Notes under the pieces: generated by a model | What the model was told of the DNA's origin: nothing | Databases searched by the model: none | Seen by the model: the letters and a program-made list of their open reading frames with translations, nothing else | Program-made: the position numbers and the translations under genes | Shown here: piece after piece, positions 16,590 through 18,230 of the stretch | Layout of the letters: every line of letters begins with the position of its first letter | Position numbering within the stretch: position 1 is the first letter of the stretch | DNA from: Acidobacteriota bacterium | Lineage (GTDB): Bacteria > Actinomycetota > Acidimicrobiia > Acidimicrobiales > Ilumatobacteraceae | Direction: 5' to 3' | DNA: 64,000 nucleotides | Assembly (NCBI GenBank): GCA_018969685.1 | Contig: JAGWXX010000003.1 | Span: 1-64,000 of the forward strand

Positions 16590-17528
16590 TCAGCGACCGA
16601 CCTTCTCGACGACCCGCAGCTTCGCGGCGGACGCGCGGGGGTTGCGCTCCAGTTCGGCCTGCGAGGGCCGCCTCGGAGCGCGAACCCGCCGCACCCGCCT
16701 CCGCACCGTGTCGGGGTGCACGAAGGGAGACGCGTCGGGGGGCGACGCACGCTCCGCATCGGCGAAGGCGCCGGCGACGATCCGGTCCTCACCCGAGTGG
16801 TACGAGAGCACCGCGATCCGCCCTCCCGGACTCGTCGCGTCGATGGCCTGGCGGAGCGCGGCGGGCAGCGCGTCGAGCTCGCCGTTGACCTCGATCCGGA
16901 TCGCCTGGAACGCCCGCTTCGCCGGATGCCCACCGGTCCGCCGCGCAGGGGCCGGAATCGCCGCGACGACCACCTCCGCGAGGTGCGCGGTGTCGCGGAC
17001 CGGCCGCGCCGACACGATCGCCCGCGCGATCCGCCGTGCGTGGCGCTCGTCGGCATGGTCGCGCAGCAGCGACGCGAGGCGCTGCTCGTCGTAGCCGTTG
17101 ACCACGTGGTCGGCGGTCAGCTCCTGCGTGCGGTCCATGCGCATGTCCAGCGGTCCCGCAGACCGGTAGGTGAAGCCGCGCTCGGCGCGGTCCAATTGCG
17201 GCGAGGAGACGCCGAGGTCGAACAGCGCGCCGGAGATCTCCGTGAGACCGTGGCGGGCGAGGAACTCGGGGATCCGGTCGAAACGCCCGTGCTCCACGGC
17301 GAGGCGGCCGCCGAACCGCTCGACCAGCGGCGCGGTCGCCTCGTGGGACGCGTCGTCACGGTCGATGCCGAGGACCCGGAGGTCGGCGCGCCGCTCGAGG
17401 AGCGCGCCCGCGTGCCCACCGCCGCCCAGCGTGGCGTCGACGACGGTGCCCGCGGGCACGGCGTCGAACGCCTCGAGGACCTCGTCGAGCATGACGGGCT
17501 CGTGGATGAAGCCGGGTGCAGCGTGCAT
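16590..17528 (-). CDS. rsmH: 16S rRNA (cytosine1402-N4)-methyltransferase RsmH/MraW
   Basis: HEPVMLDEVLEAFDAVPAGTVVDATLGGGGHAGALLE...FDLGVSSPQLDRAERGFTYRSAGPLDMRMD...KRAFQAIRIEVNGEL...VLSYHSGEDRIV. Confidence 0.96.
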   Translation of the reverse strand: MHAAPGFIHEPVMLDEVLEAFDAVPAGTVVDATLGGGGHAGALLERRADLRVLGIDRDDASHEATAPLVERFGGRLAVEHGRFDRIPEFLARHGLTEISGALFDLGVSSPQLDRAERGFTYRSAGPLDMRMDRTQELTADHVVNGYDEQRLASLLRDHADERHARRIARAIVSARPVRDTAHLAEVVVAAIPAPARRTGGHPAKRAFQAIRIEVNGELDALPAALRQAIDATSPGGRIAVLSYHSGEDRIVAGAFADAERASPPDASPFVHPDTVRRRVRRVRAPRRPSQAELERNPRASAAKLRVVEKVGR

Positions 17529-17548
17529 GTCGTGCGCCGAGGTGCGGC

Positions 17549-17667
17549 CCGTCCTCCTGCAGTTCCCCGAACGGCCGATGTCGTCGGGATGTCTCCCCGG
17601 ATCGACGGAGTGCCAGCGGGCGGAGGGTTGCTGGCGCCCTGCCGATCGGGAAACTGCAGGAGGACGG
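17549..17667 (-). repeat. 22-bp inverted repeat enclosing a 75-nt loop with nested hairpins, between mraZ stop and rsmH start
   Basis: Left arm CCGTCCTCCTGCAGTTCCCCGA (17549-17570) vs reverse complement of right arm (17646-17667) CCGTCCTCCTGCAGTTTCCCGA, 21/22 identical; the mismatch becomes a U-G pair in minus-strand RNA. Confidence 0.85.
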
Positions 17668-17668
17668 A

Positions 17669-18106
17669 CTACGCGGTTGCGTCGGGGCGCTCCACCCCCT
17701 CTCCAGCGATCTCCCGCAGCGCCTGCGCGCTGATCGACCCGTGTCGGCCCGGTTCCCAGATCTCCACGCGGTCGAACGATCCGGTGACGACGACCCTGGA
17801 GTTCAGCGAGAGGCCGGCGTAGGCGCGCAGCACCTCGTCGACGAGGATCCGACCCTGGGCGTCGACGACGACCTCGAAGGTGTTGCTCGCGAGCGCCCGC
17901 TGCTGGTTGCGGTCCATCTCGCCGCGCCGGACCTTCTCGACGGCGTCGCGGGCGACCTCCTCGAACGAGTCGGCGGTGAGGATGTCGACGCACTTGTCTC
18001 GACCGACGGACAGGTAGCAGCGCGGCTCCAGGCGGGGGCGGAACGGCGCAGGCAACGCGACGCGACCCTTCGGGTCGAGTTGCCGCTCGTGCACACCGAC
18101 GAACAC
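17669..18106 (-). CDS. mraZ: Transcriptional regulator MraZ
   Basis: VFVGVHERQLDPKGRVALPAPFRPRLEPRCYLSVGRDKCVDILTADSFEEVARDAVEKVRRGEMDRNQQRALASNTFEVVVDAQGRILVDEVLRAYAGL (two SpoVT/AbrB-like DPKGR/DAQGRI repeats). GTG start at 18106 preferred over the 185-aa ORF start. Confidence 0.92.
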   Translation of the reverse strand: MFVGVHERQLDPKGRVALPAPFRPRLEPRCYLSVGRDKCVDILTADSFEEVARDAVEKVRRGEMDRNQQRALASNTFEVVVDAQGRILVDEVLRAYAGLSLNSRVVVTGSFDRVEIWEPGRHGSISAQALREIAGEGVERPDATA

Positions 18107-18180
18107 CCGGACCTCCGCGCCATGACTCCGGAGCCCCGTGGACTCCGTCGTGGGACCGCCCCACCGCGCCGAGAGAGTAC

Positions 18181-18230
18181 CCCCACTTTCCCCCACTTCC
18201 AAGCACATTTCCCCACCACACCCCACCCCA
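18181..18230 (-). promoter_or_regulatory. Putative MraZ operator: phased TGGGG boxes
   Basis: CCCCA (=TGGGG on the coding strand) at 18181, 18191, 18211, 18221 on a strict 10-bp phase, with a degenerate box (AAGCA) at 18201; an extra CCCCA at 18226. About 75 bp upstream of the mraZ start. Confidence 0.8.

Follow-up and report, generated by a model that had tools for sequence, protein, structure and literature searches.

The nearest described analogue of the element reported here is the mraW RNA motif (Rfam RF01746), which lies in the 5′ region of mraW, that is, rsmH, in Actinomycetales (Weinberg et al. 2010, PMC2864571). Transcriptome studies of corynebacteria report this motif as transcribed, with mapped 5′ ends that fall within it or downstream (PMC3890552, PMC5784534). 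For instance, in Corynebacterium glutamicum the motif occupies 2,267,021-2,266,916 and the 5′ end of mraW is located at 2,266,932 (PMC3890552). Another dcw cluster controlled through RNA at its head is that of the proteobacterium Rhodobacter sphaeroides, where UpsM, the dcw 5′ leader, lies upstream of the cluster (PMC5089854).

Architecture of the mraZ-rsmH Leader

The element is located at 17549..17667 on the minus strand of the window (the whole stretch of 64,000 nucleotides that was analyzed) and forms the 119-nt mraZ-rsmH leader, arranged as a closing stem (P1) and two hairpins (P2 and P3) around a three-way junction. The downstream gene is rsmH (mraW; 16590..17528, minus strand), encoding the 16S rRNA m4C1402 methyltransferase, with a match to TIGR00006 of 290 bits against a cut-off of 154. 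The upstream open reading frame is mraZ (17669..18226, minus strand; stop codon 17669-17671), and its product is a good match to the MraZ models, yet under their full curated cut-offs; its true start is probably near residue 40 of the open reading frame. GTGGGG-type repeats, which we take to resemble MraZ binding boxes, are found directly upstream of mraZ at 18179-18229 on the minus strand. A search for a sigma-70 promoter in the mraZ-rsmH spacer of the window found none.

The original prediction of an inverted-repeat element with nested hairpins, filling the spacer and having a 22-bp outer stem, was confirmed in its geometry. A single base separates the element from the mraZ stop codon, and on the other side it stops 20 nt short of the rsmH ATG (17528). 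In detail, the 5′ arm of P1 in the RNA (CCGUCCUCCUGCAGUUUCCCGAUCGGC, 17641..17667, minus strand) and its 3′ arm (GCCGUUCGGGGAACUGCAGGAGGACGG, 17549..17575, minus strand) were recovered by inverted-repeat search and by folding, and the stem they form covaries. The arms measure 27 nt each and are 93% complementary, the outer 22 bp containing a single difference, which pairs as a U-G wobble when the minus strand is read as RNA. Both inner hairpins were reproduced by the fold as foreseen. P2 (17608..17639, minus strand), whose position is conserved, has the upper stem GCCAGC/GCUGGC and carries a loop with closing residues, CUCCGCCCGC (17616..17625, minus strand), conserved in the alignment. P3 (17580..17606, minus strand), seen in both fold and alignments, is formed by GUCG-auc-CGGGG-agaca-UCCCG-a-CGAC. 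The minus-strand RNA of the 119-nt element folds at -78.8 kcal/mol compared with -47.3 +/- 3.8 kcal/mol for dinucleotide shuffles (z = -8.3), none of 200 shuffles being equally stable.

Relation to the mraW RNA

The element shares with the mraW RNA its place 5′ of rsmH, both occupying the mraZ-rsmH spacer (for the mraW RNA this was checked in loci L023 and L027), as well as a long closing stem and a short hairpin whose pyrimidine-rich loop is conserved. The loops compared are ACUUCCCC in the mraW RNA and ACUCCGCCC in the acidimicrobial element, with an intermediate, ACUUCGCCC, in locus L112. On the other hand, the mraW RNA is a single hairpin with the loop CACUUCCCC, whereas the element has the P2 loop described above and, in its long form, two hairpins. 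Many acidimicrobial members also have a start codon in the 3′ arm, unlike the mraW loci looked at.

A member of RF01746 has to exceed the gathering score of the Rfam covariance model, which is 50 bits. At positions 17300-17900 of the window the RF01746 model found nothing up to E 1; 15 member loci were likewise blank with the limit raised to E 5, and genome G000 gave 0 hits, while C. glutamicum was matched by the same search. In the reverse test, a covariance model of the element (R1) reached 16.6 bits at most at mraW sites (E 0.16). Membership of the mraW RNA family is thus unsupported, and we treat RF01746 as an analogue sharing a common position, with no claim of homology. No Rfam 15 family matched the element in the window and the 15 member loci, nor did any ribosomal protein leader score above threshold. 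The main texts of the genome-scale RNA discovery surveys consulted make no mention of mraW, rsmH or Acidimicrobiia; an earlier unlabelled report is possible.

Conservation and Distribution

A blastn search at E 0.001 matched the element in 27 of 100 relatives. In all 19 relatives with a match and a fetched locus it stands upstream of rsmH, and mraZ is on its other side wherever the contig extends that far. The more distant loci of the class that were inspected likewise have it in the mraZ-rsmH spacer. In the sequence alignment of 19 distinct elements, CTCCGCCCGCT and CGGGGAGA(C/A)ATCCCG are invariant or nearly so. The P2 loop is invariant in these elements (19/19). Class-wide, 81 of the 94 distinct members have it without any change, and 92 have it when it is relaxed to CUCC[GA][CU]CC. 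Single-sequence folds of eight members gave the three-way junction or close variants, with z between -5.3 and -9.6.

The model R1 scored 103.8 bits in the window itself (17549-17665, E 4.4e-20), whose sequence is part of the model. Matches were obtained in 185 of the 297 genomes searched for the order and in 134 of the 198 for the class, and in a sample of the phylum the 22 genomes matched (out of 397) were all within Acidimicrobiia; these rates are lower bounds, because few candidates were scored per genome. An exact core pattern, searched in 85k species genomes, occurs in at least 119 stretches. Among the 119 matches listed, 111 share the strand of rsmH and precede it by no more than 400 bp, seven fall at the end of a sequence that also holds mraZ, and one is unrelated; the record titles mostly read Acidimicrobiia, Acidimicrobiales, Ilumatobacteraceae or only Actinomycetota. 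The element belongs to a structured RNA that occurs across the class Acidimicrobiia ahead of rsmH.

Two forms are distinguished. The long form of close relatives contains P2 and P3, the latter in its class-wide conserved form. The short form, found in a group of distant relatives, is about 90 nt long and lacks P3, with P1 and the P2 loop kept. Within the family of the window genome, the element is absent from loci L257-L261 and L263, where mraZ adjoins rsmH. The element is therefore dispensable, since several family members have lost it.

In 40 mraZ-rsmH spacers from other actinobacterial groups, searched by R1 with filters off, no match was convincing: all were to generic hairpins, and many of these matched on either strand. 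An Rfam search of 20 of these spacers gave nothing above threshold. The long hairpins at L310 633-696 and L026 621-674, from other actinobacteria, to which R1 aligned in both orientations, are outside the usual place and generic. Separately, the spacers of eight loci from other actinobacterial groups (L283-L288, L299 and L309) contain a small ORF, about 45 aa long, that includes a single hydrophobic stretch, for instance MRGNDGRPAGDGVMRELSESLLLLALTASSVGGLLGMVAIATHALGR in L284. Two records titled Bifidobacterium breve (L146 and L181) have the acidimicrobial element upstream of rsmH, and their titles are probably wrong.

Covariation of the Stems

RNAalifold, run on 19 elements with no imposed structure, recovered all three helices (P1, P2 and P3), and 12 base pairs showed changes in both partners. 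Covariation was further assessed by a home-made, R-scape-like test, that is, an APC-corrected G-test with a null obtained by redistributing substitutions along a FastTree tree. In the 94 distinct members aligned to the model, 13 pairs were significant out of 6670 tests, and all 13 belong to the structure. Since the structure had guided this alignment, 77 long forms were also aligned with MAFFT, blind to structure, and tested in the same way; seven pairs were significant, all on one register of P1. Significant covariation of P2 and P3 appears only in the structure-fitted alignment; since the blind-alignment pairs are all in P1, the two inner hairpins rest on the fitted alignment, folding and conservation. 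The original prediction had been staked on the stem being conserved or covarying in relatives, and both are clearly present. The evidence for the structure and the location of this RNA family is strong.

The rsmH Start Codon and Translational Control

In many species the counterpart of the P1 3′ arm contains the rsmH start codon. An AUG or GUG is found at one fixed position of the 3′ arm, about 6 bases past a G-tract, in 56 of the 94 distinct members. It is the start of rsmH in 36 of the 56 (e.g., MSEIHEPVM in L022 and MSQGFAHTPVM in L019) and opens a short ORF in the other 20, eight of which terminate at, or right next to, an rsmH start in frame, mostly through ATGA or GTGA overlaps. This fixed placement is an indication that the initiation site of rsmH, or of a coupled small ORF, is buried by the closing stem. 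No start codon stands in the 3′ arm of the window species or of others in its genus, and the ATG follows about 20-50 nt past the stem (20 in the window species), so that translational control by burial of the start is an extrapolation for them.

Upstream of the 5′ arm, TTGACA occurs at 16 of the 94 loci compared with 0.9 expected by shuffling, at a distance of 16-28 nt and, in two loci, 39-62 nt (the loci include L069, L074, L077, L080, L082, L087, L113, L121, L124 and L128-L131). It is often followed by a small hairpin beside P1 and is -35-like, but without a -10 box at the usual spacing.

The best reading of these data, which we consider probable, is that the element is a structured leader, common to the class, which controls rsmH translation by burying the initiation region; the evidence for translational control is moderate. 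Counting against it are the arm lacking a start codon in the window genus, the loss of the element in several family members and the restriction of significant P2 and P3 covariation to the fitted alignment. P1 would sequester the initiation region, namely a Shine-Dalgarno-like G-tract and, in many species, also the start codon within its 3′ arm. The P2 loop would be the likely contact (sensor) of an effector that either stabilizes or opens P1. In the window species a ribosome finishing mraZ might also open P1, since the mraZ stop adjoins the 5′ arm.

Autogenous control by RsmH is the first guess for the effector, because the RNA is found with rsmH only; RsmH may thus bind the leader and repress its own translation, with which the rsmH-only linkage among the listed pattern matches is consistent. 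Autogenous structured leader RNAs are known from ribosomal protein operons. The element resembles them in being structured, in preceding just one gene, the product of which has rRNA as its target, and in having the initiation site inside the structure; it differs in that RsmH is a candidate binder only.

RsmH modifies C1402 of the 16S rRNA, and the loop sequence ACUCCGCCCGC has its best 16S match at ACACCGCCCGU (9/11) in four 16S genes, with 4.5% of shuffled queries doing equally well near the site, which makes the resemblance no more than a lead. It is conceivable, at a low probability, that the leader is an autogenous operator mimicking the decoding-centre strand at C1402, to which free RsmH would bind on its own mRNA when the 30S substrate is exhausted. 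If true, an rRNA methyltransferase would be under substrate-mimicry control at the head of a cell-division operon.

Alternative Explanations

A metabolite-sensing RNA of the riboswitch type is unlikely but deserves consideration. The element has a conserved, aptamer-like core, with covarying helices holding near-invariant loop residues, and, similarly to translational riboswitches, its initiation region is buried, the start codon lying within the stem in many members. However, metabolite sensors usually precede other genes of a pathway too, whereas the listed pattern matches are with rsmH only; P3 is missing from the short forms, and the ligand is hypothetical.

We regard as rather improbable that the element is a processing site, at which a double-strand-specific nuclease would cut P1 and part mraZ from the rsmH operon transcript. 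The stem is long and near-perfect, and the corynebacterial 5′ ends inside or downstream of the mraW motif keep such a role in play: the 5′ end for mraW was mapped inside the analogous motif in C. glutamicum (PMC3890552), and in C. diphtheriae the motif is upstream of the mapped start (PMC5784534). Cleavage alone, on the contrary, needs neither an invariant 10-nt loop nor a start codon fixed in the arm.

The original prediction had proposed a cis-regulatory or attenuator RNA. The first part stands for a cis-acting RNA of the rsmH strand, in view of the orthologous position, the covariation, the excess of G-U over A-C described below and the invariant loop. The second part, a transcription attenuator of the dcw operon acting as intrinsic terminator or antiterminator, is very doubtful: a strong stem does head the operon, but the terminator search of the window found none, and a run of five T within 60 nt downstream occurs in 0 of 94 members. 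An intrinsic terminator, that is, a G+C-rich stem with a U tract, was thus rejected. Rho-dependent attenuation is conceivable.

A palindrome acting at the DNA level, bound by a protein, or a mere DNA repeat could be suspected from an inverted repeat beside the gene of a DNA-binding regulator (mraZ), but this is scarcely credible. The stems contain 393 G-U cells against 101 A-C cells (about 4:1), an excess that points to selection on the rsmH-sense RNA and not on a DNA palindrome, and the sense scores of R1 are far above the antisense ones (e.g., 133.7 vs 44.5 bits in L008).

The MITE-like insertion offered as the original alternative has terminal inverted repeats of 22-27 bp in its favor, but can be dismissed, as the element is a single copy in its genome, keeps an orthologous place constant across the class and has flanks without a visible target-site duplication. 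The DNA search for dispersed copies in the assembly returned only this locus and its own two arms, R1 gave one match, and phage and plasmid collections gave none; with an assembly about 92% complete, a second copy is possible but unlikely.

Significance

Structured leader RNA controlling rsmH translation, the reading preferred here, places the element among RNAs that probably set how much RsmH enzyme is made, as judged from sequence. The family is new to Rfam 15 and to the literature searched; it is class-wide and therefore old, strongly structured and tied to one gene, which stands first in the division and cell-wall operon and encodes the 16S methyltransferase. Mutants of P1, the P2 loop and the start codon in the arm can be defined, which makes the placement of rsmH in the dcw cluster a testable question. 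Together with the mraW RNA of Actinomycetales, the element suggests that rsmH is widely controlled at the RNA level among actinobacteria.
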